Source: Rothia nasimurium (GTDB taxonomy: Bacteria; Actinomycetota; Actinomycetes; Actinomycetales; Micrococcaceae). Taken from it: a DNA stretch of 44,183 nt. This document shows positions 1,190-43,993 of the stretch, in pieces; position 1 is the first letter of the stretch, and each line of letters begins with the position of its first letter. Location of the stretch: assembly GCF_004569295.1 (NCBI RefSeq), contig NZ_SPQC01000023.1:1-44183 (forward strand), in the 5' to 3' direction. Under the pieces are notes generated by a model that ran no database searches, had not been told where the DNA came from, and was given only the letters and a program-made list of their open reading frames with translations. A program made the translations under genes and the position numbers.

Positions 1190-1616
1190 GGGTTTAGTGT
1201 ACTGGAGAAAAAAGGGAATACTTTACTCGTGAAGTTTTTTGGGGTGGGGCGTGGCGGGCCCGGTAGGCCCTAGTATTTATACGTCTGCAGGAAACGCCCA
1301 TACCGAACCCCTACCCTACAAGGGCACCAAAGGTGCACTCCCCCGAACATGCACAGGACGCAGCGGGGAGGGGAGCCGGCACAGGCGCCGCATCGCTCCC
1401 CGCGCACATGCGAGGGGACCACTCTCAGCTATAGAAATCACTGCCGGTAGCCTCACAGCCCGCAAAGCACATAAGGCCACCAGCAAGAAGAGGAACAGCA
1501 AAAAGAAACAGCTGAACCTGCACCGGGTGGGACAGAAGCCCCCACCCTCTCCTACCAGTTTAGAACAGGAGCTATACATGGAAAAGGCTAATGACTAAAC
1601 TTGCACCGGACACTGT
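1190..1616. other. 427-bp region between pirin and the CRISPR array, no convincing gene
   Basis: A 119-codon plus-strand frame (1239-1598) crosses it but has odd composition and no recognisable domain, and I do not call it. The region holds a hairpin (1526-1532 pairing with 1542-1548, GGGTGGG/CCCACCC) that could end array transcription, although it lacks a T-run. It also holds a CRISPR-repeat-like palindrome at 1397-1422. A good ribosome-binding site precedes a six-codon frame (MEKAND, 1578-1598), which I regard as chance. Confidence 0.5.
1196..1201 (-). promoter_or_regulatory. -10 box for a leaderless pirin transcript
   Basis: TACACT on the minus strand is followed by six bases and then the ATG at 1189, placing transcription start at or next to the start codon. 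No ribosome-binding site is present, as expected for leaderless mRNA, which is common in actinobacteria. The -35 region is weak. Confidence 0.4.
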
Positions 1617-4600
1617 GGCTCGTCCCCGCACACACAGGGAACACGGGCTATGGTGTATTCGTCGAATAGCTCGAAGGGGCTCATCCCCGCACACGCGGGG
1701 AACACCTGGGTGGGGTGGGCGTGGGTGCCGTCACCGGCGGCTCATCCCCGCACACGCGGGGAACACGCTTAGCCAGCTGACTCTTACCAACAATCAAGGG
1801 GCTCATCCCCGCACACGCGGGGAACACTATAAGGCTGCTATTTTCACCAAGCCGGTGCCGGGCTCATCCCCGCACACGCGGGGAACACCCGTTGGTTTTG
1901 CGAATTTCCGAGACCAGGGCGGGCTCATCCCCGCACACGCGGGGAACACATGCCAGGGTACGCAGCTCCTACCTTGTAGGGGGCTCATCCCCGCACACGC
2001 GGGGAACACCATCCTTTCGCTCAAGATGTTTTGCTCATGCGGGGCTCATCCCCGCACACGCGGGGAACACAACGGCGCCGCCCGGCGGGGTCTCCCTTCA
2101 CCAGGCTCATCCCCGCACACGCGGGGAACACGAAAAGTTTAGTGAGGACGCCAACCGGGAAGTGGGCTCATCCCCGCACACGCGGGGAACACCGGCAGGC
2201 GTGAAATTCGGGGAAAACCATGTCGGGCTCATCCCCGCACACGCGGGGAACACTGGCACAAACAGCGGTGAACGCGGCCCTTGATGGGCTCATCCCCGCA
2301 CACGCGGGGAACACTACGATGAGGCAAGAGCAGCGTACCCAGCAGTAGGCTCATCCCCGCACACGCGGGGAACACCAACCTGGGCTACCGCTGAGGCGGC
2401 CCCCGATAGGCTCATCCCCGCACACGCGGGGAACACGCGGTGACATCTACGGTCAGCCAGGCCCCTTCGGGCTCATCCCCGCACACGCGGGGAACACCTG
2501 AGCGGCATTATGTGGGCTCTGCTGGTGTGGGGCTCATCCCCGCACACGCGGGGAACACTTCGTACCCAGAGCGTAGAGCAGTGCACTCGGCGGCTCATCC
2601 CCGCACACGCGGGGAACACCTGAATCCGGTGAAAAGCTCAAAGGAATGGTTGGGCTCATCCCCGCACACGCGGGGAACACCATCCTTTCGCTCAAGATGT
2701 TTTGCTCATGCGGGGCTCATCCCCGCACACGCGGGGAACACACCCTCTTCAGCTTCACTGTCACCACCGGCTGGGGCTCATCCCCGCACACGCGGGGAAC
2801 ACCATCATCAGGGACACCTGTTACTGCAGAATCCGGGCTCATCCCCGCACACGCGGGGAACACTAGATGGGACGCGTCTGTGGGTTGCCCCTACGGGGCT
2901 CATCCCCGCACACGCGGGGAACACGCCGTGAGTGTCATCAGCCCTGACCATTTCCTGGGCTCATCCCCGCACACGCGGGGAACACCTTCACTCATTTTCT
3001 GGTTTCTCCTTTGTGAGAGGCTCATCCCCGCACACGCGGGGAACACATGTCTATCTCGACTTTGACAGTTTCGGAGTCGGGCTCATCCCCGCACACGCGG
3101 GGAACACGGTGAAATCGCACTATAAATGCACCACGCCCTGGGCTCATCCCCGCACACGCGGGGAACACGTGATGGTCAGGTAGGTATCGCCGTACCCCTC
3201 GGGCTCATCCCCGCACACGCGGGGAACACGGAAATACTACTACCCTGCCGGTAGAAGAGCGGGGCTCATCCCCGCACACGCGGGGAACACTTGTGCCGGT
3301 CGCTGATGCCCTGGTTTTTGTGGGGCTCATCCCCGCACACGCGGGGAACACGGTGCGGTGCTGGTGGTGGTGTTCATAAGGTGGGGCTCATCCCCGCACA
3401 CGCGGGGAACACCTGCTTGTTCACTTGCTGGGTCATGGTTTCCAGGGCTCATCCCCGCACACGCGGGGAACACCGCAGACGCGGGGAAAAAGCACCACCA
3501 GCAGGGGGCTCATCCCCGCACACGCGGGGAACACTTCGCACTTTCATGGCGTCACCTGTTTCGTACGGGCTCATCCCCGCACACGCGGGGAACACGAGCG
3601 AATCAAGTAGCCGTTCTTCTTCCACTCGGGCTCATCCCCGCACACGCGGGGAACACTGGTCAATCATGGAAGCCTGGACATACACAGGAGGCTCATCCCC
3701 GCACACGCGGGGAACACTCTTCCTTGGAGATCACGATTTCGTAGAGGCCGGGCTCATCCCCGCACACGCGGGGAACACCCGAATAAGTAGCCAACACTGA
3801 ACGGTTCACGGGGCTCATCCCCGCACACGCGGGGAACACTGGTACGGCCCCGTATCATCGACCGTGTACCGGGGCTCATCCCCGCACACGCGGGGAACAC
3901 CCACCGCCGACCCCGACGAATCCGCATACGACGGGCTCATCCCCGCACACGCGGGGAACACCCTTGGGGTGCCCCGAAGCCGCCTGCGTAGGCGGGCTCA
4001 TCCCCGCACACGCGGGGAACACGCGTCCTCGTACACGACGGCTTCCTTGCAGGGGGGCTCATCCCCGCACACGCGGGGAACACCGTTCGGCGAGGACGTC
4101 GAAGGTAGGGAGCGAAGGCTCATCCCCGCACACGCGGGGAACACACCAAATGCTCCCGAGTCCACACAGGCTTACCGGGCTCATCCCCGCACACGCGGGG
4201 AACACTCTTTGACGCTCACGGAGGTGAACTGACATTGGGGCTCATCCCCGCACACGCGGGGAACACAAGAAAACCATGGATCTGCTTCAACGCTCCTGGG
4301 GCTCATCCCCGCACACGCGGGGAACACAAGCAGGTAGCAATCGACGATGAAGCCGCCGAAGGCTCATCCCCGCACACGCGGGGAACACGAAAATTCGTGC
4401 CCACCTCATAGGAGCCGCCGGGGCTCATCCCCGCACACGCGGGGAACACACGGAAACTGGTTTAACGGAACCGTTCACGGCAGGCTCATCCCCGCACACG
4501 CGGGGAACACAGTCAATCTAAGGCGCTCAGTTCACAGCGGAAGGGCTCATCCCCGCACACGCGGGGAACACTTTCAAAGGAAGCGGTAGAGTCCAGCGGT

Positions 4601-5792
4601 AACGGGCTCATCCCCGCACACGCGGGGAACACTGAGTCTGCGGGTTTGACTGTGGCGGCCAGGGGGGCTCATCCCCGCACACGCGGGGAACACTTTTGTC
4701 CAGGTGCTGATGGTGGCTTTATGGCGGGCTCATCCCCGCACACGCGGGGAACACGAAACAGGTTGGTTGGATTATCGCTTGCGTTGCGGCTCATCCCCGC
4801 ACACGCGGGGAACACCTTGAAGAGGTCTTCAAAGACTATTTTGGGCAGGGCTCATCCCCGCACACGCGGGGAACACCCCACCGCTCGGGGGTGCGCTGAG
4901 CTTTTGCAGGGCTCATCCCCGCACACGCGGGGAACACTTCGTGTGCGTGCGCGTTATTAATGGGGTGTAGGGCTCATCCCCGCACACGCGGGGAACACAT
5001 TGCGTTGCTGATAATCGCTAGAGATTCGCGGGGCTCATCCCCGCACACGCGGGGAACACAGGAGCTGCCAGCGGCGCTTGGGGCCGTTGCCGGGCTCATC
5101 CCCGCACACGCGGGGAACACCCCGGTGGTGGTGATGTAGGCGCCGGTGACGGGGGCTCATCCCCGCACACGCGGGGAACACAACACCGCCCCCGCTACAC
5201 CGGCCGTCCCTGAGGGCTCATCCCCGCACACGCGGGGAACACCCCACTATCTCAGTAGATAAGAGTAAGCACCGGGGCTCATCCCCGCACACGCGGGGAA
5301 CACTTAGCTCTGTATCGCGTAAACGTACCCGTGGTGGGCTCATCCCCGCACACGCGGGGAACACTGCTGTGCTGGCACACTCAAAGGGTGCTAGCTGGGC
5401 TCATCCCCGCACACGCGGGGAACACGACCAACAGCACATGCGTGACGCGGTTAATTCGGGCTCATCCCCGCACACGCGGGGAACACCGTTTAGCCTCGGC
5501 CCATACCAGTGAGGAGACGGGCTCATCCCCGCACACGCGGGGAACACCACCAAATGCTCCCGAGTCCACACAGGCTTACCGGGCTCATCCCCGCACACGC
5601 GGGGAACACCTGAGGAGCGCGCCGAGCAGGCAGAGGCGCAGGGGCTCATCCCCGCACACGCGGGGAACACTTGGTGACGGCAAAGACCCGGCAGACTCCG
5701 GCGGGCTCATCCCCGCACACGCGGGGAACACTCTTAGAAGCGTTCGATGGGGAAATGGAGAGAAGGCTCATCCCCGCACACGCGGGGAACAC
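1617..5792 (-). CRISPR. Type I-E CRISPR array: 68 intact repeats plus one degenerate, 68 spacers
   Basis: The 28-bp repeat on the minus strand starts GTGTTCCCCGCG and ends GCGGGGATGAGCC, with a CCCCGC/GCGGGG hairpin. It has the classic type I-E form and orientation, so the array is transcribed leftward from a leader beside cas2. Intact repeats start at 1678 and every 61 bp to 5765, except for one 60-bp unit (spacer after the repeat at 1921) and one 62-bp unit (spacer 5548-5581). The leader-distal repeat (1617-1644) has three substitutions, as is usual at the old end. The base after the 28-mer on the crRNA strand is C in roughly 55 of 68 units, suggesting a 29-nt repeat whose last base derives from the PAM. 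Spacer oddities are listed as findings. Confidence 0.99.
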
Positions 5793-5871: not shown

Positions 5872-6237
5872 CTACATCTTAGTCCGCCACGGGGGATTGC
5901 GACTACGCACTTGTGCTCGCGCTTTACTCCACCCCGTGGTACGTTTCGATTTCGCAGGGGAACCAGGTAAAGGTCTCATCATCAATGTTAACCCTTCCAG
6001 GTCGACAGGTTCCCAGTCGTGTTTATGCACCTTGAAACGAAGACGCTGTTCACTGTCCGAAGAGTACACCAGAATTGCTCTACCGCTCCCAGCATATAAG
6101 CAAGTTCGTTCCCAGAGAGCCTCGCGAACTTTTGCCGAAACATTGCCTACAAATGTTCCAGGACTAATCTCTAATAGCCACCGCGTCAGGTCTCCGCGTA
6201 ATCCCTCTGGGCACGCAGTCACAACTAAAACAATCAA
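5872..6237 (-). CDS. cas2: CRISPR-associated endonuclease Cas2, type I-E
   Basis: Cas2 pairs with Cas1 to form the integrase that inserts new spacers at the leader end of the array. The N-terminus MIVLVVTACPEGLRGDLTRWLLEI and the following SAKVREALWE stretch are the signature of the I-E (CT1978-like) Cas2 family. Translation probably starts at TTG 6237, overlapping the cas1 stop by four bases. At 121 residues it is longer than the E. coli protein (94), the surplus being a basic C-terminal tail (KSKRTTGWSKARAQVRSR). It is the last gene of the operon, and its stop lies 79 bp from the first repeat. Confidence 0.95.
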   Translation of the reverse strand: MIVLVVTACPEGLRGDLTRWLLEISPGTFVGNVSAKVREALWERTCLYAGSGRAILVYSSDSEQRLRFKVHKHDWEPVDLEGLTLMMRPLPGSPAKSKRTTGWSKARAQVRSRNPPWRTKM

Positions 6238-7175
6238 CTACCATCACCTGCATAGTTGATGCCTGCTTCTACTGTAGTTTTACCGGGCCCAGCCCAAAGT
6301 GAAAGCTCATCAATCTGCTCCCATTCAGTATCAATATCTGGAGCTAATAGCCGCGAAATATCACGAGCGCACCGGGCGAGTAGACGATGTGTGATTACAG
6401 CATCGCGGACAGCTCGGCGAACATCCGATGTGATGTTACTGCTGCCTGAAGCAACTACATCAAAAGCAGCCGGAATGGTGATCTCAGCTTTATACAAATC
6501 AGCGATATCAAAGACAAAAGAGCGATCATGGCCAGTATGAATAAAGCCCAGTCCTGGAGTACATCCCAACGCAACAATGACTGAATGAACCACCCCGTAC
6601 AAAGCAGCATTAGCGGCGGTAAGGGCTTGGTTAATGGGGGAACCGTCCTCAAAGGCCCCCGGCATATAATCGCGCTTACCCCAGGCAACACCAGTACGTT
6701 CAGAATGTTCACGGTAAATGCGACGGACGCGAGCACCTTCCCTGCCACGGAGCTGTTGCATAGTAAGTTGCGAGACATCTTCGCCTGGGAAACGATAGGC
6801 GTACATTTTCCGTGCAACATCAAGCCGTGAACGCACGTTTGAAACGTGCTCAGCCTGAGCCTGCAACATACGAGAGCTCCGAGCTAGAGAGCTACCGTGA
6901 GCATAGAATCGGACGCCGTTCTCACCACACCAAACTACGCTAGCTCCACAGTCACCCAAGAGAGTCATCGCAGCATTCGTTACACGGGTGCCGGGCCCTA
7001 AGAGCAAGCACCCTAAAGTGGCTGCTGGAATATGGATTACTCCCCTATCAGAAGTTGCGGTAACCGCGTTGGCGTCCCGGTGCACCGCACACCTCTCCAG
7101 ATACACAAAAGATAATCTGTCGCTAACTCGCGCCAGCTCAGTTCTAGTAGGTGGCGGTGCACCAGGAATACTCAT
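6234..7175 (-). CDS. cas1: CRISPR-associated integrase Cas1, type I-E
   Basis: This is the catalytic subunit of the spacer-acquisition complex (313 residues; usual I-E Cas1 about 300). The metal-binding residues are visible: E146 in LRGREGARVR, H213 in GFIHTGHDRSF, and D223/D226 in VFDIADLYK. The H-to-D spacing of 13 matches H208/D221 of E. coli Cas1. The start ATG overlaps the cas6e stop by four bases (ATGA) and has a strong AGGAGG ribosome-binding site within cas6e. All catalytic residues are intact, so the locus looks capable of adaptation. Confidence 0.97.
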   Translation of the reverse strand: MSIPGAPPPTRTELARVSDRLSFVYLERCAVHRDANAVTATSDRGVIHIPAATLGCLLLGPGTRVTNAAMTLLGDCGASVVWCGENGVRFYAHGSSLARSSRMLQAQAEHVSNVRSRLDVARKMYAYRFPGEDVSQLTMQQLRGREGARVRRIYREHSERTGVAWGKRDYMPGAFEDGSPINQALTAANAALYGVVHSVIVALGCTPGLGFIHTGHDRSFVFDIADLYKAEITIPAAFDVVASGSSNITSDVRRAVRDAVITHRLLARCARDISRLLAPDIDTEWEQIDELSLWAGPGKTTVEAGINYAGDGS

Positions 7176-7858
7176 GCCGCTGCCCTCCTAAGCGTCATTA
7201 GGCCGCAACCGTAGGCTTTTCCTCGCCCAATTCCCTGAATTAAAGCAGACTTTAGGGACTCAGAATCGGTAACTTTCAAGACGCCATCAAACTGCGCTTT
7301 TCGCAAAGTAACCTGTGCGCTTCTACCACCCTGACAGGGGTCCTTCCGAGAAAATCGAAGGTCTTCTCGGTTAGTAACATCGACAGCAAGACCTGTGAGG
7401 CCCTGAGGAGCCTCTTTTATTTCGAAACCAAAATCCGCAGACCGTTGGGTAAGCCAGTTAATCTGCTGTTCAGGAGTCACATGAGGTAAGACCTTCCCTC
7501 TGCTCCCGGGAGGAGTTGACTCCCGTTTGACAGGGTTAGCTTGCAGACGGAATCCCCACTCCTGCCCAACCATAAGTCGGTCAAGGAAAGTGCCGTAGTG
7601 AATCGAGTTCCAGGTTTGAGACACCCAACCCGCATTTTCAACGATATGGGTGAAATCTGGTTCCAGAGGGCTCACTACATACAAGGTATATTTGATGCCT
7701 TCTTGGTCTAAACGCCAAAGCACACGTTCCCCAGCTTCTTCAAGCGAACCTGGTGGGAAGGTCTGGAGCACAGCCTTGTGCATAAACTGACGGTTGCTTA
7801 GAAGCTTTCGTCCCTCACGTTTTTGTGGGTTGATAAGGATAGAACTGAACCAGGTCAT
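7172..7858 (-). CDS. cas6e: crRNA-processing endoribonuclease Cas6e
   Basis: Cas6e (CasE, Cse3) cuts pre-crRNA at the 3' base of the repeat hairpin and stays bound to the 3' end of the crRNA in Cascade. The 228-residue protein has the N-terminal MHKAVLQTFP block, where H27 is the likely catalytic histidine. It ends in the glycine-rich loop GIGRGKAYGCGLMTL typical of RAMP-fold Cas6e. It overlaps cas5 by four bases upstream and cas1 by four bases downstream, so translation is coupled. Confidence 0.97.
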   Translation of the reverse strand: MTWFSSILINPQKREGRKLLSNRQFMHKAVLQTFPPGSLEEAGERVLWRLDQEGIKYTLYVVSPLEPDFTHIVENAGWVSQTWNSIHYGTFLDRLMVGQEWGFRLQANPVKRESTPPGSRGKVLPHVTPEQQINWLTQRSADFGFEIKEAPQGLTGLAVDVTNREDLRFSRKDPCQGGRSAQVTLRKAQFDGVLKVTDSESLKSALIQGIGRGKAYGCGLMTLRRAAA

Positions 7859-8547
7859 AGGCCTCGCACCGCTTCCATAAAGGGATCACTCATGAGTTGT
7901 CCTTCTTCATTATCAAACACCACAGGCTCCGCTTCATACACGGTTCGCCAGCTGTATTGTCGGTTTTCTTGGCTATAGCTCAGTGGAGTATCTCGCACCT
8001 GGTCGCCGTCTTCACCAGTACGGGCATCTCGGATAAGGGGCAGAAAGACCTTCTGGTCTCTGCGTTTTTTATGCCAGGACGCTGCTCCCCAAGGCTGTTT
8101 GCGGAGCGCCGTTTCTGCGTCATCTTCGCTGACGCATACGAAAAGATCAGCATTTGCAGGACAGTTACGGCGCCCCAGGTAAAGGGGATACGCCGGCTTC
8201 TGTACCGCTTCCGCGATGGTTTCGATGAGCGCATCAGATCCTGACACAGCTGCTAGAAAGACCGCGTCTGACAGATAGTAACGGGTTGAGAGGTTAGGGG
8301 CTTTAGCACCTGGTTCGCGGGCTGTTTGATAGTCCCGTTCCAGGTTTCCTGGTTGGTCGATACGTACCGCAAACTCAAGCGCAGCAAGATCAGCGATATT
8401 ATCGGTTCGTTGTCTGCCCTGAGCCGCAGCAAGCAAACCTAAAACTCCTGACTTGGTGGGTACAGTATTAGTTGCACGAGTACGATAGCGGCTATTTGAC
8501 CCCCAGGATTGCAAAGGCCCTCTCAGTTTAAGAACCAGTGTTTTCAT
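7855..8547 (-). CDS. cas5e: Cascade subunit Cas5e
   Basis: Cas5e (CasD) holds the 5' handle of the crRNA (here ATGAGCC plus the next base) and connects Cse1 to the Cas7 backbone. The protein opens with MKTLVLKLRGPLQSWGSNSRYRTRATNTVPTKSGVLGLLAAA, the standard Cas5e start. I chose ATG 8547 over an in-frame start at 8661 because the extra residues would overlap cas7 and carry no conserved sequence. The product is 230 residues, normal for the family. It begins four bases after the cas7 stop and overlaps cas6e by four bases. Confidence 0.96.
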   Translation of the reverse strand: MKTLVLKLRGPLQSWGSNSRYRTRATNTVPTKSGVLGLLAAAQGRQRTDNIADLAALEFAVRIDQPGNLERDYQTAREPGAKAPNLSTRYYLSDAVFLAAVSGSDALIETIAEAVQKPAYPLYLGRRNCPANADLFVCVSEDDAETALRKQPWGAASWHKKRRDQKVFLPLIRDARTGEDGDQVRDTPLSYSQENRQYSWRTVYEAEPVVFDNEEGQLMSDPFMEAVRGL

Positions 8548-8551
8548 GGAG

Positions 8552-9670
8552 TTACTTACTTTCAGTGGCTTCCAGGGTTGCTGTGAGTTCGTCCAGAAGC
8601 TGGGGCAGGTTAGTAACGGTGCCCAAACTGTCAAGAGCCTTAACCAGGCTAGGCAAAGCAACTACCCAAGATGCCTCAGGCTTATAGCCGTACATAGCGT
8701 CTAGGGCTTGTGCCTCTTCTGCTAGTTTCTGAGCCGCTTGTAAGCGGTAACCACCGTTTTCATTGGTAGCAGGCACTTCAAAGGCGTTGACCAAGCTAAC
8801 GGGGCGATCCTTTCGGACGCTGACCACAATAGCCTCAGGTAAAGTACGGTTAGCAAAGGTATTCTGCTTGCCGGTAGGCATGGAAGTCAGGAAAGACTCC
8901 ACAAAAGCCCGCGTTGCTTTAACTGCGACGTCGCGGTCATCTAGATTCGCTGCTAAGCCCTCAAGGTTGACGGTGGCATAGCGGTAGAGGGTTGATGACA
9001 TCATCTCAACGGTACCCAGCATTCCAGCACCAGTTTCTTCGGCATCGCGAACCACATCATCAACGGCAGTGAAGAAGTCAAACTCGGGTTCAGCTCCCGC
9101 GACGCCTAATGCGTGGGCTACCTGGGCAGCCGCATCAACGTTATAGGCAGCATCGTCAGCGACCATGCGGCCAAAGAGGGCAATATCGACAGAGTTTTTA
9201 TCGTCAAGGACCTTCTGGGCGTCCTTCTTAGCAATCTTTTCTCCATCAGCATCAATAATTGCCTGAGCAGCAGCCTGAATCTGGTGGTTGCTGAGGAAAA
9301 GCAGGTAGCCGGTTTCGAGGTGGCTTTCTTCGTCTTCGCCCTTCTTCTTGGAAGAGGGGGAAACCTTAATGCCAGCAGTTTTCAAAAGAGCCTCAACCTC
9401 AGCGGTCGCGCGGGCCTCGTCCCAGCGCTCGTCGAGTTCCTGAATCTTGGACGCAATCTTCTGAACGACCCGCTTGGTACGTACACCCATGAGTTCAGGG
9501 GTGAGAGTTTCTGCAAGGTCATGTCGCATGACATGCTTCCATGCCTGAGATGAAACGCGCTGACGGGGCACACCGCCAAAAGTCGCTGTTTTGGGGGCGC
9601 CAGTATCATCGCGATTGATGTTGCTGGGAGGCAAGGTCTGTAGTGCGTGAATATCAATAAAGAGTGACAT
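8552..9670 (-). CDS. cas7e: Cascade backbone subunit Cas7e
   Basis: Cas7e (CasC, Cse4) forms the six-subunit filament that carries the crRNA spacer and flips out every sixth base, which matters for the regulatory pairing described upstream of cas3. The 372 residues begin MSLFIDIHALQTLPPSNINRDDTGAPKTATFGGVPRQRVSSQAWK, the typical Cse4 opening. A GAAAGGAAA ribosome-binding site precedes ATG 9670. There is a short charged insertion (SSKKKGEDEES) near residue 105. The gene lies 21 bp after cse2. Confidence 0.97.
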   Translation of the reverse strand: MSLFIDIHALQTLPPSNINRDDTGAPKTATFGGVPRQRVSSQAWKHVMRHDLAETLTPELMGVRTKRVVQKIASKIQELDERWDEARATAEVEALLKTAGIKVSPSSKKKGEDEESHLETGYLLFLSNHQIQAAAQAIIDADGEKIAKKDAQKVLDDKNSVDIALFGRMVADDAAYNVDAAAQVAHALGVAGAEPEFDFFTAVDDVVRDAEETGAGMLGTVEMMSSTLYRYATVNLEGLAANLDDRDVAVKATRAFVESFLTSMPTGKQNTFANRTLPEAIVVSVRKDRPVSLVNAFEVPATNENGGYRLQAAQKLAEEAQALDAMYGYKPEASWVVALPSLVKALDSLGTVTNLPQLLDELTATLEATESK

Positions 9671-9691
9671 TAGAGATTTTCCTTTCGATGG

Positions 9692-10324
9692 TTAGTTCTT
9701 GGTGGGTGTTTGTTTCCAGAGGGCTGAAGCATAGTCCCTGCCCCAACGCAGGATGACACCTTCACGTCGGCTAGGAGTATGCAGTGCCCAAAGGTCGCTG
9801 GCTAGTTGGGCATAGTCAAGCGGGATCTCGTAGGTGTGCAGAAGGCTAATGAGAGATCGGAGATGGTAGCTGATGGCGGAAGGAGTGCGAGCAACCATAA
9901 GAGCGTCCAGCCGACTTTTAATGGATTTGCTTCCCGATGAAACGGTCAACTCAGCAACAGCTGTTCCTAGTGACTTTTTACCTTTAAGGTGCATAGGACG
10001 GCCTAAAGCACGTTGGTGTAGTGCATATAGAGATAGAGCGGTGAAAGCTGCTCGCTCAGCGTTATTCGCTTCGTCCTTAGTACCGGTGTAGGCGAAATCG
10101 GGCAAAAGTGTATCCAAGGCATAGGACCATGCCAAAGGGTCTTTTTCCGGAGTTTTTCCTGCTGCCTTTCGAAGCGTTGCTAGGGTCGCTCGATCGCCGC
10201 GTTCATACGCTGCCTGAAGTTTGTAAAGAGCAGTTGCTATCGAGTTGTAGAAACTCTGTTTTTCAGGCAGAGAGGATAACGGCATATCTTGGCCGGAGAA
10301 ATCTTGTTGGGTTCCGGTATCCAT
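9692..10324 (-). CDS. cse2: Cascade small subunit Cse2
   Basis: Cse2 (CasB, Cas11) forms a dimer along the Cascade belly and stabilises the R-loop. The protein has 210 residues, within family range. The central part (AERAAFTALSLYALHQRALGRPMHLKGKKSLGTAVAEL) and the C-terminal DYAQLASDLWALHTPSRREGVILRWGRDYASALW are characteristic. AAAGGAAAACT precedes the ATG, and 11 bp separate it from the cse1 stop. Confidence 0.95.
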   Translation of the reverse strand: MDTGTQQDFSGQDMPLSSLPEKQSFYNSIATALYKLQAAYERGDRATLATLRKAAGKTPEKDPLAWSYALDTLLPDFAYTGTKDEANNAERAAFTALSLYALHQRALGRPMHLKGKKSLGTAVAELTVSSGSKSIKSRLDALMVARTPSAISYHLRSLISLLHTYEIPLDYAQLASDLWALHTPSRREGVILRWGRDYASALWKQTPTKN

Positions 10325-10335
10325 AGTTTTCCTTT

Positions 10336-11994
10336 CTATGAGGCATTTTCATTAGCCGGTATTCTTTCAAGGGTTTTCTTGAGAGACTTTCTAAGACGGT
10401 TAAAAGCTGTTGCGGTATTCAAAACTCGGGGCTTCTCAGAGCTTGTATCAAGCCTGCCAATCAGAGCCTTTGAACCTGCTCCCTGAGCTAACCTAATGGC
10501 TTCATCTCCGATAATTTTTTCAACGGTATCGCACCATTCGTTAAGTTTTTGAGCTAAATCAGTATCGGGAGTGACGGTCAGGAGCCAGTCTTTGAATCTA
10601 GTTTCAAGTTTATTGAGGGCACTTTCAGTCGCTGAAGGAACGAAAGCGTACGTCCCACCTGCAGCTTCTGCCAAGAAACCGGCGAACTGCCCCAAGTTGA
10701 TAGACGCCTCGACAGCTCGTCGAGCGGCCTGAACGATTCGGTCAGAGGACGGAGAATCTCTAGCTATCAGGGTACGGAGCTTGAACAGAACGACCTCATG
10801 AATTGAATTGGTAATAATCGAAGATTGAGGGCCATACACAAACCCAACAAGTTCTACTCGGACTTCTTGGTCTGCGTTAACCAGACGATTTTCTTTGAGC
10901 ACTTGTAGAGAGTGCAAGGTTGCTGGGATTTTGTCTGGTTCCCCGCCTTTTGGTATTTCTTGAAGTCGCTCATCAGCTAGGAGCGCCTCAATACCTTTCC
11001 AAAGGGTGCGTTCTTCAGGGTGGCTTTTAGCAAAAAATACCGGAGCTCCCTTCTTGGACTGGACCTTGCTGTAACGATAACCGGTCATGGGATCTGCAAA
11101 CTGATTTCTGATTTCAATTTTGTCGCCATTGGTGACCAGTACGCCGATGGCAACTTCCTCAACATCGTCCCAGAAAAGTCGGACGCGGCGGGATTGCCAG
11201 GTCAGTACATCGCAAGGCCCAGTCGGAAACTCGCTAGTGCGAGGAGCAGCGGTTGCAGGTTCCCTCTCCCAGACAGGGAGGTCCCCATCTAGGTTCTCTT
11301 CGGTGAAGATAAAACTTGCGGGAGTATTAAGCAGAAGAGTTTGAGCAAGGTTGGATCCGTGAACAACGACTCCACCGGTGAAACCAGCCCAGCCTGTTCC
11401 AATGGGATACCCTTTACCGCTCCCAGCTTTGACGCGGGGGTCGCCCACAGCACCAGGCTTAATGCCTGAGTAATCCCAAGCCTGGATTGAAATCAACCAA
11501 CGGGCGGTCTCTCCAGGAGAAAGAGCCTGAATTCCATTTCCAGCCCGCATGGTGAAGTAATCAGTCTCTGCTTCAGGGATGATGCGCTGGATAGGAGCAT
11601 GTTCACCCTTGGCAGTAGCCAAGTCAGCTACCTGCATGAAGGGAGCACGATCATCGAGCAAATCAAACCGGTCTCGATATTGAGTCAGATAATCAAACAC
11701 AGGCTCAGAAATAATTTCAGCCCCACCTTGCACAAGGTCTTCCCACCAGTCTAGGAAGTCCTCGCACTCCTGTACGTCTTCGGTGGCAGCGTGAGCCCTC
11801 CAGAAGATAGCAATAAGAATACGGAGTATAGCGTAATCCTGCTGGGGAGAGTCACCTGCCAAGCACTTAATATCCTCAAGTTCTTTAAACACTTCTGTAA
11901 GTGAAAGACAGCGGTTTGACCCATCAGCCATAAGGCATTGAACCCAGGGCTTGTCCACCAGGTTAAAGCTCAGTTCAGTTGCCGTTGAACTCAT
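10336..11994 (-). CDS. cse1: Cascade large subunit Cse1 (Cas8e)
   Basis: Cse1 (CasA) recognises the PAM and recruits Cas3. The 552-residue protein starts SFNLVDKPWVQCLMADGSNRCLSLTEVF, the family hallmark, and contains the conserved YFTMRAGNGIQALSPGETARWLISIQAWDYSGIK segment. It is somewhat longer than E. coli CasA (502). Its ATG at 11994 lies within the end of cas3 (20-bp overlap) behind a strong AAAGGAGAACC ribosome-binding site. Confidence 0.96.
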   Translation of the reverse strand: MSSTATELSFNLVDKPWVQCLMADGSNRCLSLTEVFKELEDIKCLAGDSPQQDYAILRILIAIFWRAHAATEDVQECEDFLDWWEDLVQGGAEIISEPVFDYLTQYRDRFDLLDDRAPFMQVADLATAKGEHAPIQRIIPEAETDYFTMRAGNGIQALSPGETARWLISIQAWDYSGIKPGAVGDPRVKAGSGKGYPIGTGWAGFTGGVVVHGSNLAQTLLLNTPASFIFTEENLDGDLPVWEREPATAAPRTSEFPTGPCDVLTWQSRRVRLFWDDVEEVAIGVLVTNGDKIEIRNQFADPMTGYRYSKVQSKKGAPVFFAKSHPEERTLWKGIEALLADERLQEIPKGGEPDKIPATLHSLQVLKENRLVNADQEVRVELVGFVYGPQSSIITNSIHEVVLFKLRTLIARDSPSSDRIVQAARRAVEASINLGQFAGFLAEAAGGTYAFVPSATESALNKLETRFKDWLLTVTPDTDLAQKLNEWCDTVEKIIGDEAIRLAQGAGSKALIGRLDTSSEKPRVLNTATAFNRLRKSLKKTLERIPANENAS

Positions 11995-14863
11995 GGTTCT
12001 CCTTTCTATAGGTCGGTTTATTTAGGAGCTCTAAACCGAGTTCCTGACTGTACCGCAGCCGAAAACCGGCTAACTCAGTTTCAAAATTTTCATCAAGAGT
12101 TACTTGTAGAAGCCCCTTAAGCAAAGGCGATTTCTGCCAAGCTAAATCGGTTGCCTGTTCTAACTGATCTAACACTTCATCGAGTAGCCAAGACCGTGAC
12201 AGCTGGTAGGGCAACCGCACCGTACACTGAGCTAAAAGATAGGCTGTATCTGCATCAGGGGTGAGCCCCACCGGCAAAGCCGGGGACTCGCCGTCTTCAA
12301 CCAGCCAAGGTAAGGGAGCATAATACCCATCGCCTACCTTCTGTACGAGCACTACTTCAAGGGTGGGCTCAGTATCACGTACTTGAGCAGCGCCTTCCTC
12401 ATCCGATAGATCGCCACTCTGAGCAGCCCATACTTCTGAGAATTCACGGACGCTCCGTGACAGCTCCGCTCTGAAGCTTTCAGATTTCTTCCGTGCAGTT
12501 TCTAACTCGCTATCAAGCTGTTGCCGGGCCCGCTGATAAGTGTCCTCCCAAGCTGGTAAGACATGAGAGCTGGAATAGACAGCCTCGACCAGAGAAGGAA
12601 TCTCACTAGGAACTTTGAGGACTCTCTCCACGCCCACATGAAGTGAAAGCTCACTGCATGTAGGTAGCAAGAGAGCTGCCTGATAGACAGCATCCACACC
12701 AGGTGCAAAGACCGGGCTAGAGTCTTCTGTTGGGAGTTCCTGCATACCCCGTACATACAGACGAGGCTCTTGAGCCCATTGCGGTCTATCTTCAGGCAAA
12801 CGTTGGTGACGGTGCAGTCGTCCTAGTCTCTGCAGGATTAAATCAATTGGCGCAATATCTGTCACCATACAGTCAAAGTCTAAATCCAAAGATTGTTCGA
12901 CCACCTGGGTTGCCACCACAATTCTGCGGTCAGGACGTCCCTGTCCTAGTGAAGCTCCGGGACCCAGCTCCTGTACCAGGTGGCTCTCCCTTTGAACACG
13001 TTCCACTGCCATATAGCGAGAGTGCAATAGATAGGCATCATCCCCTACCTGCTGTTGGGCGAGCTGATAGGCAGCCTGAGCCCGGTCAACAGTGTTACAG
13101 ATGACTAACAAACACCCTCCGCCCTCACGTACCTGCCCCATCAGCTGTTCGAGCGAAGCGTCATCATCAGCCATGGGTTCCACCGTGTAGGTAGTACTAC
13201 GAGAGCTCGCCTCAACCTCGTACACGTCAATTGAATTAGCTGCCACCGCAGTAATGACGGGGTAAGCAATGCCGGCCGAAGGAACAGCCTCAGCTGAAGT
13301 TCGTTTCCCTCTCAGCCCGGACTGGTACGCCACAGCTAATTTAGCTTTGGTTTCGTGGGGCAGAGTTGCCGAGAGCAGAACGACCGGAGCGCCGTAACTT
13401 CCCAGCCAGCGCAGGGCGGTCTCCATATAGTGATTCATATAAGCGCCGTAGGAGTGGACCTCATCAATGACTACGACTTTTCCTGCAAGACCGAGGTGGC
13501 GTAGCATCAGATGTTTACTCTGCAGAGCCATCATGAGGACCTGATCCACGGTAGCCACAACCAGACTTGAGAGAATCCCCTGCTTACGGCCTCTGAACCA
13601 CTGGTGAGCAATAACCTGGGAATGATTGTGAGCAGAATGTTGATCCTCATCATCGAGGTTATAACGGGCGTATCGCCCCATAGAAGTGTAGAAAGGGTTA
13701 AGCTGATTCTTCGAGTGCCCCAGATACATCGAGATCACCGGTGAATTATGCGACTGCTCTGCCCACCTTTTTATACGGGTAAAAAGGGCATCAGTAGTTG
13801 CCATAGTGGGAGCCCCAAAAAAGATGCCGCTACAACCATTGAGATGAGCTAGTTTTTCAGCAGCTACCAAAGCGGCTTCTGTTTTCCCCTCCCCCATAGG
13901 AGCTTCAATAATAAGCATAGAGGGCGGGTTCTCTAAGTTAAGTACTTCAATAACAGCTTCCTGCACTGGCCTGGGTGAGCTAGTTGCATCCCACAAAAAT
14001 TTAGCAGCATAAATTTCTCCAGGTGTTCGGTAGGAAAAATCTTCAGACTTCCAGCTTGGGGGGAGCCTGAGCTTGGAAGTAGCAGACTCAAAACGCGCAC
14101 GCTGGTCACCTGGTGCAAAGAGACCCAACGGGAAATAATTAGCGTTGGATGCAATCCAGTCCGCCATAATGACCACGCCTGCCAGAATCATTTTGGCGTT
14201 GTCTTTAAGCTTGGTTCGCTGACTTAGAAGCTTGATAATTGCCGGTTCAGCCTGAGTGAGCTCAAGAATTTTGCTCAGAAGTTCGTTATGAACTATCGCC
14301 CACCCATCCGACAGATTATCAACTTCGCGCTTTGCATTTTTGCGATGGTCACCACCTGCGGGGAGACCATGGTGGGCCCCTAAAATTTGACCTAGATGGG
14401 ATAACGTGCGGTAGCTGCTCTGACCAAATTTTTCATCGAAGAACTGAGCCAAAATAATGTAGCTCGCTGCAGAGTGTGGGGACCACTGATCTGAAGGTAC
14501 TGCGGAAGGCAAGCTCAACCCCGTTGCACGTATCTGGTCAGCCAGGAAACTGTAGCGAGATGATTCGTTGAGCTGACTTGCGAAAGAGTGACTAGCTTTG
14601 CCTACGTCGTGGGATCCGCACAGGAAAGCTACAAATCGCTGGCAATCTTCATTGGATAAACCAAGCTGTCTCTGAATAAAGCTACGGTGATTTTCTGAAA
14701 GGTAGTGGCTCCACAGGTAGGCTCCGGCCTGGGCAGAATCCATCATGTGCTGGGGCAGGTTAAGCCAGTCAGTGCTCTGGTCGTCAGATCGGTCAGTCTT
14801 GGCCCAGAGACTAGCGGCTTGCGGACTCCAGCTAGGGAAATCACCTGTAAAAAGTTGCTTCAT
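11975..14863 (-). CDS. cas3: CRISPR-associated helicase-nuclease Cas3
   Basis: Cas3 is recruited to Cascade R-loops and degrades target DNA. The N-terminal HD nuclease shows LPQHMMDSAQ and GSHDVGKASHSF (about residues 38-95), then GAHHGLPAGGDHR. The helicase has Walker A APMGEGKTEAAL (about 321-332), DEVH (about 467-470), LLSATLP, and QVVEQSLDLDFD near the C-terminal lobe. I chose ATG 14863 over the in-frame TTG at 14869 because AGAAGG lies at a normal distance from the ATG. At 962 residues it is full length. First gene of the operon, behind a near-consensus promoter. Confidence 0.97.
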   Translation of the reverse strand: MKQLFTGDFPSWSPQAASLWAKTDRSDDQSTDWLNLPQHMMDSAQAGAYLWSHYLSENHRSFIQRQLGLSNEDCQRFVAFLCGSHDVGKASHSFASQLNESSRYSFLADQIRATGLSLPSAVPSDQWSPHSAASYIILAQFFDEKFGQSSYRTLSHLGQILGAHHGLPAGGDHRKNAKREVDNLSDGWAIVHNELLSKILELTQAEPAIIKLLSQRTKLKDNAKMILAGVVIMADWIASNANYFPLGLFAPGDQRARFESATSKLRLPPSWKSEDFSYRTPGEIYAAKFLWDATSSPRPVQEAVIEVLNLENPPSMLIIEAPMGEGKTEAALVAAEKLAHLNGCSGIFFGAPTMATTDALFTRIKRWAEQSHNSPVISMYLGHSKNQLNPFYTSMGRYARYNLDDEDQHSAHNHSQVIAHQWFRGRKQGILSSLVVATVDQVLMMALQSKHLMLRHLGLAGKVVVIDEVHSYGAYMNHYMETALRWLGSYGAPVVLLSATLPHETKAKLAVAYQSGLRGKRTSAEAVPSAGIAYPVITAVAANSIDVYEVEASSRSTTYTVEPMADDDASLEQLMGQVREGGGCLLVICNTVDRAQAAYQLAQQQVGDDAYLLHSRYMAVERVQRESHLVQELGPGASLGQGRPDRRIVVATQVVEQSLDLDFDCMVTDIAPIDLILQRLGRLHRHQRLPEDRPQWAQEPRLYVRGMQELPTEDSSPVFAPGVDAVYQAALLLPTCSELSLHVGVERVLKVPSEIPSLVEAVYSSSHVLPAWEDTYQRARQQLDSELETARKKSESFRAELSRSVREFSEVWAAQSGDLSDEEGAAQVRDTEPTLEVVLVQKVGDGYYAPLPWLVEDGESPALPVGLTPDADTAYLLAQCTVRLPYQLSRSWLLDEVLDQLEQATDLAWQKSPLLKGLLQVTLDENFETELAGFRLRYSQELGLELLNKPTYRKENHEFNGN

Positions 14864-14916
14864 CGTCAACCTTCTCTACTTGGAAGATTCCTTCAAATAC
14901 TTAAGTCGTCTAGTTC

Positions 14917-14945
14917 AGATTAACAACCCCACCCTAAACTGTCAA
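14917..14945 (-). promoter_or_regulatory. Promoter of the cas operon
   Basis: On the minus strand TTGACA (14940-14945) and TAATCT (14917-14922) are exactly 17 bp apart, the best promoter in the window. It gives a 5' leader of roughly 47 bases before cas3. The AT-rich stretch upstream of the -35 box, plus strand 14946-14966, is the sequence matched by the pseudo-spacer of the nearby RNA gene. Confidence 0.8.
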
Positions 14946-14966
14946 CTAGTAATTATAAAAATATAT
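14944..14966 (+). promoter_or_regulatory. Putative Cascade regulatory target over the cas -35 box
   Basis: The plus strand reads AAC (14944-14946) and then TAGTAATTATAA. The pseudo-spacer at 15028-15048 (minus strand) reads C TAGTAGTTATAA. With the C counted as the 29th repeat base, spacer positions 1-5 and 7-12 match and only position 6, the base Cascade flips out, differs. Past position 12 the match is partial (4 of 8), which would favour binding without cleavage. The PAM-side bases are also the -35 box. Confidence 0.6.
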
Positions 14967-14971
14967 GCAAT

Positions 14972-15087
14972 TAAAATCCCCCTCAGCCAAAGCTGAGGGG
15001 GACTAGCCTCATACAGATGAGGAACGACTATCTAGTTATAACTACTAGGGCTCATCTCCAAACTTCTTTGAAGATCAGTCTCACGAA
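14972..15087 (-). ncRNA. CreA/CreR-like RNA: two degenerate CRISPR repeats around a pseudo-spacer
   Basis: Pseudo-repeat 1 (15049-15076) ends in exactly ATGAGCC, the crRNA 5' handle of this array, preceded by a 7-bp hairpin (CTTCAAA/TTTGGAG, one G-T pair) that ends at the same position as the repeat hairpin. A 21-nt pseudo-spacer follows (15028-15048). Pseudo-repeat 2 (15000-15027) has GTT, then CCTCAT-CTGT-ATGAGG, the counterpart of CCCCGC-GTGT-GCGGGG with compensatory stem changes, and ends in CC. A terminator follows directly. I infer an RNA of about 110-120 nt processed or bound by Cascade. Its pseudo-spacer matches the cas promoter. CreA antitoxin RNAs and cas-repressing CRISPR-like RNAs have this ΨR-ΨS-ΨR layout. 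Transcript ends are estimates. Confidence 0.62.
14977..15002 (-). terminator. Terminator of the CRISPR-like regulatory RNA
   Basis: A GC-rich stem pairs 14978-14987 with 14992-15001 (CCCCCTCAGC/GCTGAGGGGG) around a four-base loop. On the minus strand it is followed by ATTTTAATT. It can only end a minus-strand transcript coming from the right, ahead of the cas promoter, and so marks a separate short transcription unit there. Confidence 0.85.
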
Positions 15088-15093
15088 GCCCTC

Positions 15094-15099
15094 ATCCTA
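15094..15099 (-). promoter_or_regulatory. Candidate -10 box of the regulatory RNA
   Basis: TAGGAT on the minus strand would start RNA near 15087, about 10 bases before pseudo-repeat 1. The same hexamer precedes the TetR gene. No good -35 box is visible, so this is a weak call. Confidence 0.35.
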
Positions 15100-15174
15100 T
15101 TTCACCAGCTTTTTCGTGAAGGTGCTACCTACTGGAGCAACTGCAGACAGCCCTGTTCCTTGCCTCTACCCCTC

Positions 15175-15243
15175 CAGAAAAGACCAGTTAAACCAGAAAT
15201 GACCACCTACTAGGCGGTCATTTCTGACTTAGATGGTACCTAG
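15175..15243 (-). terminator. Terminator element downstream of the CoA-binding gene (copy 1 of a repeat family)
   Basis: A hairpin pairs CAGAAATGACC (15194-15204) with GGTCATTTCTG (15216-15226), with a further CCTA/TAGG inside. The flanks, CAGAAAAGACCA on one side and TTAGATGGTACCTA on the other, recur around a different stem at 41281-41350. Both copies lie just past the stop of a minus-strand gene. Confidence 0.7.
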
Positions 15244-15246
15244 TGC

Positions 15247-15750
15247 CTAGGCCAGCACCTGCCGCTTTGACGAAATCACGCCGGTCACGAACCCGGCCAG
15301 GTGCAGGCCGCCGTGGAAGCGGGCGTGCTCAATCTTCACGCACCGGTCCATCACCACGTTCAGCCCGGCGTCCTCACCCAGACGCGCAGCCTCCTCATTC
15401 CAGGAGCCCAACTGCATCCACACCGTCTTCGCGCCCACCTCGATGGCCTCCTGAACCACACCAGGCAGGTCCTCGTTGCGGCGGAAAATCTCCACCAGGT
15501 CAGGGGCCTCAGGCAGATCAGCCAGCGACGCATACACCTTCTGCCCCAGCACCTCCTTACCCTTAGCCGCCAAAATCGGGTTCACAAAATACAGGGTGTA
15601 GGGGCTCGACGACTGCAAATACGTCGCCACAAAATACGAAGACCGCGAAATCTTGTCAGACATACCCACAATCGCAATGGACTTCGTCTCGTGCAAAATC
15701 TTCAGTCGCTCCGGCGCGCTGGGGCCTTCCCAGGTACGAATCTCAGTCAC
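15247..15750 (-). CDS. CoA-binding protein (CoA_binding_2 family)
   Basis: This 167-residue protein has a Rossmann-like CoA-binding fold. It shows KSIAIVGMSDKISRSSYFVATYLQ (about residues 23-46), then PEAPDLVEIFRRNEDLPGVVQEAIEVGAKTVWMQLG, as in the YccU-like family. Its role is unknown; adjacency to metY suggests a link with acyl-homoserine or sulfur metabolism. The GTG start (15750) is three bases past the metY stop, with GAAGGAGG inside the end of metY, so the two form a translationally linked operon. Residue C137 in MDRCVKIEHARF is the conserved family position. Confidence 0.9.
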   Translation of the reverse strand: MTEIRTWEGPSAPERLKILHETKSIAIVGMSDKISRSSYFVATYLQSSSPYTLYFVNPILAAKGKEVLGQKVYASLADLPEAPDLVEIFRRNEDLPGVVQEAIEVGAKTVWMQLGSWNEEAARLGEDAGLNVVMDRCVKIEHARFHGGLHLAGFVTGVISSKRQVLA

Positions 15751-41258: not shown

Positions 41259-41280
41259 GGTGTCTATCGTAGTCCTTCTA

Positions 41281-41350
41281 CAGAAAAGACCATATTAAAT
41301 CAGAAAAACCCACCTAGTTAGTGGGTTTTTCTGGTTTAGATGGTACCTAC
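41281..41350 (-). terminator. Terminator after purA (copy 2 of the repeat family)
   Basis: CAGAAAAACCCAC (41301-41313) pairs perfectly with GTGGGTTTTTCTG (41321-41333). On the purA strand the second arm ends in a T-run. Flanks CAGAAAAGACCA and TTTAGATGGTACCTA match the element at 15175-15243, whose stem differs in sequence but has the same shape. Confidence 0.85.
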
Positions 41351-42949: not shown

Positions 42950-43993
42950 ATGAGCGAAGACCCATACACACCTAACACACCGTCTTCTCAGCCCAATCAG
43001 CCCGGAGTACCCTCATCGCCTGCTGGGGCTTACGCCGCACCGGGCCAGCAGCCCTACTACGACCCCTACGCCGCGCCTCAGCAGCCTAACAGCAAAAAGC
43101 CTAAGAATGTGCTCGGCCTGGTGGCCCTAGGCTTGGGCGTCCTCGGCTTTATCCTGGGTTGCATCCCCGCGGTTGTGTTACTCGGCTGGCTCTTACTGTT
43201 TGCAGCTTTTGTAACCGGCATTGTTGGCCTTTTCCAGAAGAACAAGGAAAAAGTCACCTCGATTATCGCCATTGCACTCTCGGTAATCGGGTCAGTGATT
43301 TCAGGTATCGTCCTGTTTTTCTTTGCCCTCAACACCATCGCCAACGATTCTGAGCTCCAGCAGAGTCTACAAGAGCTTGAGTCAGCGGTAGCTAGCCCGT
43401 CGGCAACTGCTCCCACAGGTTCTACAGCCCCTGCTAGCTCTGCAGCCCCAACCACAACTACCCCGGCTACAACTGCCCCTGCCGCTTCGAGCGCGCCGTC
43501 TACCGAAGCATCCCAGCAGACTAATTCTGCTAGTAGTGATGTCCCACGCGATTACAGCAATGCCCTTTCAACCGCAAACCGCTACCTTAGCATCATGGAT
43601 TTCTCGTACGCAGGTCTCTACGAGCAACTCACCAGTGAATACGGTGAAAAGTTCTCACCTGAAGCAGCCCAGTATGCAATGGATAATCTCAACGCTGACT
43701 GGAATGCTGAAGCCCTGGGAAGCGCACAGAACTACATCGATATCATGCCTTTCTCATACGCGGGTCTCTATGACCAGTTAACTAGTGAATACGGCGAACA
43801 GTTCACACCTGAGCAGGCTCAATATGCAGTAGATAATGTTAAGGCAGATTGGAATGCTGAGGCTCTAGAGTCAGCCCGTAATTACCTAGATACTATGGAT
43901 ATGAGCACAGACCGTCTCTACGATCAACTCATTAGCGAATACGGTGAAAAATTCACCCCCGAGCAGGCCCAGTACGCCATCGATAATCTCTAA
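42950..43993 (+). CDS. Membrane protein with three Ltp-type repeats
   Basis: Starting at ATG 42950 behind TGGAAAG, the 347-residue protein has a Pro/Tyr-rich cytoplasmic N-terminus (1-50), then two hydrophobic segments (about 53-95 and 104-130) of DUF4190 type. A Ser/Thr/Ala/Pro linker (about 148-200) follows, then three repeats of about 48 residues. Each repeat runs like ALSTANRYLSIMDFSYAGLYEQL-TSEYGEKFTPEQAQYAIDNL. Repeats of this kind (Ltp) occur in cell-surface proteins and in the Ltp lipoprotein of streptococcal phage TP-J34, which blocks phage DNA entry. Whether this host protein does so is unknown. No lipobox is seen. Confidence 0.8.
   Translation: MSEDPYTPNTPSSQPNQPGVPSSPAGAYAAPGQQPYYDPYAAPQQPNSKKPKNVLGLVALGLGVLGFILGCIPAVVLLGWLLLFAAFVTGIVGLFQKNKEKVTSIIAIALSVIGSVISGIVLFFFALNTIANDSELQQSLQELESAVASPSATAPTGSTAPASSAAPTTTTPATTAPAASSAPSTEASQQTNSASSDVPRDYSNALSTANRYLSIMDFSYAGLYEQLTSEYGEKFSPEAAQYAMDNLNADWNAEALGSAQNYIDIMPFSYAGLYDQLTSEYGEQFTPEQAQYAVDNVKADWNAEALESARNYLDTMDMSTDRLYDQLISEYGEKFTPEQAQYAIDNL

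Follow-up and report, generated by a model that had tools for sequence, protein, structure and literature searches.

The locus examined here raises the question of why a CRISPR-like guide RNA element should lie directly ahead of the first gene of a type I-E cas operon, outside the CRISPR array. It was found in a 44,183-nucleotide (nt) stretch of Rothia DNA (the window), for which a reading made from the letters alone had proposed that the guide directs Cascade to the cas promoter. Sequence comparison within the window, in close relatives and across the order Actinomycetales supports this proposal, and the element is very probably a creR, by which the cell's own Cascade would be guided to repress its own cas promoter. 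Below we describe the anatomy of the element, its seed, its protospacer-adjacent motif (PAM) and the uniqueness of its match, followed by the joint change of guide and promoter and the recurrence of both in relatives.

Anatomy of the guide RNA element and its target

The host genome comprises 2,688,339 bases (2.69 Mb), and the minus strand of the window carries a complete type I-E operon upstream of an array, in the gene order cas3-cse1-cse2-cas7-cas5-cas6e-cas1-cas2. The cas3 gene (11975–14869, minus strand), which scores above cut-off against TIGR01587 and TIGR01596, has an open reading frame from a TTG at 14869, the ATG at 14863 being the more likely start. Its best-matching named relatives are the Cas3 proteins of R. 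nasimurium strains, in a comparison from which the window's own record was possibly excluded. The remaining genes (5872–11994, minus strand) match TIGR02547, TIGR02548, TIGR01869, TIGR01868, TIGR01907, TIGR03638 and TIGR01873, all above cut-off. The array (1616–5792, minus strand) consists of 68 identical repeats (GTGTTCCCCGCGTGTGCGGGGATGAGCC in the crRNA orientation) and a degenerate repeat at the far end, with a spacing of 61 and spacers of 33 nt; the repeats end in ATGAGCC, and the base that follows, base 29, is C in 56 of the 68. Two of its repeat-spacer-repeat units (1981–2071 and 2652–2742) are identical, so one spacer occurs twice. A comparison of the array with phage records returned no protospacer, the two weak multi-piece matches (68–69% identity) being taken as repeats, and hence gave no PAM.

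The creR element is bordered by the cas operon on one side and by metabolic-type genes (with CoA-binding and PLP-enzyme domains) on the other. Its region had no match in a plasmid collection, and a search of 14700–15400 against Rfam gave sub-threshold matches only. Other repeated sequences in the window include a dispersed palindromic terminator-like intergenic element (15183–15242 and 41278–41349), which covers all 22 further own-genome matches of the creR-upstream query, several of them being the two strands of one place, and three tandem units with 150-bp spacing (43614–43990), which lie inside an open reading frame and represent a 50-residue protein repeat.

The element starts with a degenerate first repeat, psiR1 (15049–15076, minus strand), in which 15 of 28 bases are those of the array repeat and which comprises a 7-bp hairpin (CTTCAAA-GAAG-TTTGGAG) followed by the exact 5′ handle ATGAGCC. 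In a scan of the window for an exact handle with a 6-bp stem and a 4-nt loop, psiR1 was the sole such site outside the array. The pseudo-spacer (15028–15048, minus strand) is 21 nt long, counting base 29, and the guide proper, TAGTAGTTATAACTAGATAG, starts at 15047, the ninth base counted from the first base of the handle. There follow a degenerate second repeat, psiR2 (15000–15027, minus strand), which agrees with the array repeat to the same extent (15 of 28) and contains the hairpin CCTCAT-CTGT-ATGAGG, and a probable intrinsic terminator of the guide RNA (14973–15001, minus strand), in which, judging from the fold, CCCCCTCAGC and GCTGAGGGGG are joined by TTTG and followed by ATTTT. The terminator hairpin has at least 10 bp and a U-rich tail, and was left unflagged by a terminator scan of 14800–15300. 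The sequence-only reading had described these same parts, from the degenerate repeat with its exact handle and hairpin, through the 21-nt pseudo-spacer and the second degenerate repeat with its hairpin, to the terminator behind it, and all of them are present. CreR RNAs are likewise characterized by two (often degenerate) repeats around a single short spacer, set next to the cas operon but separate from the array.

The 123-nt RNA of the element folds better than its own shuffles (z = −5.2; 0 of 200). In its minimum-energy fold, psiR1 and the terminator form and part of psiR2 pairs with upstream sequence; the psiR2 hairpin, if forced, costs about 2.8 kcal/mol. The handle is exact and a hairpin stands at the right place, as recognition by the cognate Cas6 would require, but the sequence of the psiR1 stem is not that of the array stem, and recognition by Cas6e is therefore not assured. 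A scan of 14800–15300 turned up no convincing promoter for the guide RNA.

The target of the guide, TAGTAATTATAA and the bases that follow it (14947–14967, plus strand), matches guide positions 1–5 and 7–12, with a mismatch at position 6 and patchy matching beyond position 12. It is flanked by the PAM AAC (14944–14946, plus strand), which overlaps by two bases the −35 box of a putative cas promoter (14917–14945, minus strand) read by eye as TTGACA (14945–14940), a 17-nt gap and TAATCT (14922–14917). The −10 box is weak, with three of six bases agreeing with TATAAT, and neither this promoter nor one for creR was flagged by a promoter scan of 14800–15300. From the −10 box to the cas3 ATG there are 53 nt. 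The target precedes the point at which the cas transcript presumably begins, and from this position pairing would be with DNA rather than with cas mRNA. As in CreR, complementarity to the cognate cas promoter is limited and PAM-flanked. At positions 1–5 and 7–11 the guide and target agree at 10 of 10 bases with an AAC PAM, which none of 1,000 dinucleotide shuffles of the downstream region equalled. The PAM and split seed together, AANTAGTANTTATA, occur once in the 2,688,339-base genome, at the cas promoter site, and the reversed pattern does not occur.

These observations bear out the pairing set out by the earlier reading: the match of 12 of 13 bases to plus-strand positions 14946–14958 is correct; the lone mismatch falls at guide position 6, which, with a 29-nt repeat, is a flipped-out position; the flanking bases are AAC, ending in the same C that follows most array repeats; the PAM (14944–14946) overlaps the complement of TTGACA (14940–14945); and pairing beyond position 12 is partial.

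Joint change of guide and promoter in relatives

psiR1 is identical in the R. nasimurium genomes G016, G017, G018 and G019 and in G004. Aligned with G016, the window shows 96–98% identity over 15140–15041, 42–56% over 15040–14863 and 82–95% in cas3. The divergent block contains most of the guide, psiR2, the terminator and the promoter, together with the cas3 leader. The R. nasimurium guide, TAGTAGATGTGC, nonetheless agrees with its own target, TAGTATATGTGA, at 10 of 10 bases at positions 1–5 and 7–11, and positions 7, 9 and 11 differ between the window and R. nasimurium alleles in guide and target alike. In G016 the psiR2 hairpin (CCTCGT-GTCG-ATGAGG) retains its pairing, and at the position of the terminator the R. 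nasimurium loci show, on inspection by eye, another G+C-rich hairpin, likewise followed by a T tail. TTGACA stands at an unchanged place in R. nasimurium, though most of the block differs. Because the edges of identity are sharp, exchange of a block seems the better explanation than stepwise compensation. A second such exchange separates G027 and G013 from G015, with the same psiR1 and a different guide and target. The comparison of relatives for which the sequence-only reading had called thus finds the handle, the hairpins and the guide–promoter pairing conserved, with guide and promoter changing together.

We compared ten guides with ten regions in all combinations; of the nine Rothia guides among them, three (C, F and I) had first been spotted by eye. 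With an AAN PAM required, own pairs scored 9–10 of 10 and all others at most 7, except for the identical guides of G027 and G013. When the PAM requirement was dropped, unrelated guides and regions scored 7–9 and once 10, so the PAM belongs to the evidence. Base 29 of the array agrees with the target PAM in the window, G016, G026 and G013; the agreement is not general, since base 29 is mostly G at the C-type Rothia loci, where the target PAM is AAC, and is mixed in G002.

Several relatives have kept the element and lost cas genes. In G017, G018 and G019, cas3 residues 1–160 alone are left at the locus, together with the guide and promoter, and the stretch examined yielded no further cas gene (the G019 contig ends beyond the cas3 fragment). 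G018 has no Cse1 match anywhere in its genome; G017 and G019 have another I-E system. In G004 (L119, G004:C72) a creR of the R. nasimurium type is kept, and its terminator is directly followed, in place of the cas promoter, by unrelated sequence that may be an insertion element; only cas3 residues 691–964 were found elsewhere. A separate observation is that a complete tet(M)-type ribosomal protection gene (NF012155, above cut-off) directly follows the 5′ fragment of cas3 in G018 (L035:10406–12340) and also in L036 and L037; in these three R. nasimurium genomes its frame takes the place expected for the remainder of the operon, downstream of a creR and a cas promoter that are both intact.

The strongest rival to the creR reading is a CreTA module, in which the guide would act as an RNA antitoxin, keeping a neighbouring toxin RNA repressed and thereby addicting the cell to Cascade. 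The psiR1-psiS-psiR2 layout and the split seed are those of creA, as far as the available part of its description goes (PMC8501985), but the target here is the cas3 promoter, and the 53-nt leader behind it lies inside the block that is 42–56% identical between the window and G016. Where CreTA has an adjacent toxin RNA gene with a targeted promoter, reading of the leader revealed no toxin. Moreover, G018 keeps guide, promoter and cas3 fragment without a Cse1 match, so that losing Cascade looks survivable, an indirect argument against an addiction module. We regard CreTA as very unlikely. The earlier reading had likened the element both to CreA/CreTA and to cas-repressing RNAs; the second likeness, to CreR, fits better, and the first fails on the target, which is a cas promoter.

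Recurrence, Cascade signature and guide length

To delimit the distribution of such elements we used one rule: a handle within one mismatch, a hairpin directly before it, an AAN PAM and at least 9 of 10 matches at positions 1–5 and 7–11. The searches covered 35 Rothia genomes including the host's own, from which 19 regions were taken; of the genomes sampled, 42 of 395 in the family and 61 of 396 in the order contained Cse1, and 23 non-Rothia family regions and 51 order regions were added. Genomes with Cse1 below cut-off were left out (Rothia G008, G009 and G030; order G396, G426, G470, G583, G685 and G709), L105 was excluded from the region counts (its contig starts inside cas3), and L040 (G004) was counted as a miss (its contig ends inside cas3).

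The rule matched 22 of the 41 Rothia and family regions (expected 0.3), on which it had been tuned and which include near-identical loci (four C-type Rothia and four with the R. nasimurium allele) and three loci without cas genes. It matched 20 of the 51 order regions (expected 0.55), for which the stem rule was fixed beforehand but the array handle of each locus was added to the handle list. In total, 42 of 92 cas-upstream regions of the order Actinomycetales carry such guides, against about 0.9 expected from dinucleotide shuffles (20 per region); 19 of 41 and 31 of 51 regions are without such an element under the rule. As to the tuning, a strict stem rule (loop 3–6, at least 5 bp) found 16 of 41 and missed Rothia loci with longer loops; the loop was loosened after these misses had been seen and before the order set was taken, and with loops of up to 8 and a minimum stem of 4 bp the count was 21 of 41 (expected 0.27), which the addition of the handle GTGATCC raised to 22 of 41. 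Five scrambled handles gave 1, 2, 0, 0 and 0 matches, compared with 23 for ATGAGCC, several of these being array or chance matches.

The cas3 and cse1 starts are readable in 15 Rothia I-E loci, and 13 of these pass the rule. G001 has a 9/10 match with a 22-nt guide, seen by eye only and kept outside the rule counts, and, of the Rothia I-E loci examined, G029 (L047) alone showed no creR. The AT-rich cas3–cse1 region of this locus (L047:16759–17203) holds palindromes such as TTACCATGTAATTAATTACC, perhaps the operators of a protein repressor. Other features noted during the survey are a match far from cas3 in L097; two equal-score Cse1 copies and several scattered cas3 fragments beside the I-E system in L048 and L116 (G001:C1); and, in C-type Rothia, two small frames between creR and cas3 (L041:17131–17824, with the same sequence in L042, L043 and L044), one of them weakly resembling ribbon-helix-helix/RelB antitoxins (below cut-off) and the other without a family, which are possibly a toxin–antitoxin pair.

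The survey yields 34 distinct guides (L169 is not among them, its first 11 guide bases being those of L166). Cascade flips out every sixth base, and the matches at positions 1–20 of these guides number 34, 34, 32, 34, 34, 4, 34, 33, 27, 32, 32, 8, 25, 23, 23, 20, 19, 8, 12 and 10. Positions 6, 12 and 18 thus dip to 4, 8 and 8, compared with 27–34 at positions 1–5 and 7–11, and the rule had scored none of the three. The PAM, required by the rule to be AAN, is AAC at 24 of the 34. A PAM-free scan that allowed one mismatch in positions 1–11 found 40 matching guides, 29 of them with a single mismatch, which fell at position 6 in 20 of the 29; the PAMs of the 40 were AAN in 22, CCC in 11 (mostly repeat-like self matches) and other in 7. 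When 10 of 10 was required, 20 guides matched at offset 8 from the handle and none at offsets 4–7 or 9–13, so that guide matches are confined to the register expected of a Cascade guide. In the available part of the CreA study, positions 1–5 and 7–11 are likewise needed and positions 6 and 12 free (PMC8501985).

This pattern weighs on two further alternatives. Were the element the decayed remains of an ordinary array, with a surviving spacer that happens to match the promoter, degenerate repeats (15 of 28 bases in each) would be natural, but the match is unique in the genome, guide and target change together in relatives, the guides recur in 42 of 92 regions against about 0.9 expected, and the register counts stand at 20 against 0; we consider this highly improbable. 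Equally improbable is that the match consists of two binding sites for a repressor protein, with repeat-like hairpins belonging to an unrelated RNA: paired short sequence copies near a promoter are typical of operators, yet here the sequence varies by system with the register to the handle fixed at 8, and the mismatches concentrate at positions 6, 12 and 18.

Guide length provides a further regularity. Measured by script from handle to psiR2, the pseudo-spacers of the 34 guides are 21 nt (13 cases), 22 nt (3), 27 nt (2), 31 nt (1), 33 nt (9), 34 nt (3) and 46 nt (2), with one unmeasured. Of the two 46-nt cases, the window ties between 21 and 46, the latter being the terminator hairpin, and is read as 21, and L045 is spurious and is 34 nt by eye; L041, to which the script assigned no length, is also 34 nt by eye. 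A stricter psiR2 score keeps 26 of the 34 guides, at 21 nt (13), 22 nt (2), 27 nt (2), 31 nt (1), 33 nt (7) and 34 nt (1). This score was reached by 2 of 1,700 shuffles, whose best placements show no preference for these length classes; as related loci are not independent, we give no P value for the ladder. Cas7 covers 6 nt, and the clusters at 21/22, 27 and 33/34 nt fit whole Cas7 steps.

A broader proposal, to which we give an even chance, is that the cas-silencing guides of Actinomycetales come in discrete lengths of 21, 27 and 33 nt (plus 0–1) set by the 6-nt pitch of Cas7. The 21-nt class would then yield a truncated Cascade with four Cas7 subunits that poorly licenses Cas3, trimming by whole subunits would make a dedicated repressor, and the guide/terminator/promoter cassette would be exchanged between species. 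In a type I-B system, the available part of the report describes a 24-bp spacer with which the target was repressed and interference and primed adaptation were lost (PMC10989794), which suggests why short guides suit a repressor.

Proposed mechanism and known systems

On the creR reading, the degenerate two-repeat mini-CRISPR would be transcribed toward the cas operon and stopped by its own terminator. Cas6e would cut at psiR1, and probably at psiR2 too, to give a crRNA-like RNA with a normal 5′ handle, which would load into the cell's own Cascade. The complex would bind DNA at 14944–14967 through the AAC PAM and the split seed (1–5 and 7–12), on the −35 side of the promoter, and so block RNA polymerase. 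Compared with an array spacer, the window guide lacks 12 nt, the equivalent of two Cas7 subunits; this and the patchy pairing after position 12 may leave Cas3 without licence to cut. Array crRNAs compete for Cascade and anti-CRISPRs remove it, so repression may fall when free Cascade is short, and cas expression rise in response.

If so, Rothia and many of its actinomycete relatives would have a defence system that gauges its own Cascade supply with an RNA resembling an immune guide. The many guide–promoter pairs may serve as a natural experiment on binding without cutting, with a seed at 1–5 and 7–11, free positions at 6, 12 and 18 and an adjacent PAM, and the 21/27/33-nt ladder predicts Cascade complexes with fewer Cas7 subunits. 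For CRISPR-based silencing in actinomycetes there is a caution: the complex may already be loaded with a native guide, and cas expression may be under that guide's control.

The rival readings rejected on the evidence given for each are CreTA, a chance match, operator sites and Racr. The last, an RNA anti-CRISPR left by a phage that would soak up Cas proteins, would account for a solitary repeat-like unit, such units being described in phages in the available part of PMC10651486, and is highly implausible for an element that lies between a cas operon and metabolic-type genes rather than in a phage or mobile element, is kept in relatives and has a guide matching the cas promoter.

A search of the literature on Rothia, CRISPR and type I-E gave no description of such an element by title and the start of the abstract, and the words CreR, CreTA and Rothia are absent from the available part of a review of CRISPR in actinomycetes (PMC12231136). 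The earlier reading knew of no description for this host, and none was found here either; the kind is published, as CreR. For the length ladder, no report was found by title among the matches listed, which is no proof of absence.

In class 2 systems, autoregulation of the tracr-L or scaRNA type works through an RNA whose short pairing redirects the effector to a chromosomal promoter, either its own or another; these cases differ from the window element in using a single-protein effector, a different RNA and an unrelated sequence. Racr shares with the window element the solitary repeat-like unit, but in the available part of its description is a phage-borne inhibitor (PMC10651486), whereas the window element is chromosomal, cas-linked and guide-bearing. 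CreTA is closer, having the psiR1-psiS-psiR2 layout, a seed at 1–5 and 7–11 and a promoter target with a PAM, as far as the available part of PMC8501985 describes it; the window element differs in targeting the cas promoter rather than a toxin promoter and in outliving the loss of cas genes.

The closest counterpart is CreR, like the window element a crRNA-like RNA beside cas genes that matches its own cas promoter. The work of Liu et al. reportedly covers CreR in type I-E systems as well. The accessible parts of two papers describe CreR as a crRNA-like RNA near cas genes that is complementary to its own operon's cas promoter and usually has no toxin gene with it (PMC12737573), found in type I and V-A systems, repressing its own cas promoter and responding to crRNA supply and anti-CRISPRs (PMC12737573 and PMC12948488), and termed a mini-CRISPR regulatory RNA (PMC12948488); the source given in that part of PMC12737573 is Liu et al. 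2023 (Cell Host Microbe 31:1481, doi 10.1016/j.chom.2023.08.005). Compared with CreR, the window element stands out by its short 21-nt guide, the order-wide 6-nt length ladder and the swapping of guide and promoter as a block. These features may in part be known already, and the 6-nt ladder may be new. The control of cas genes by a guide RNA of their own is already known; the addition here is to have traced it through many relatives, in each of which the guide fits its own promoter.
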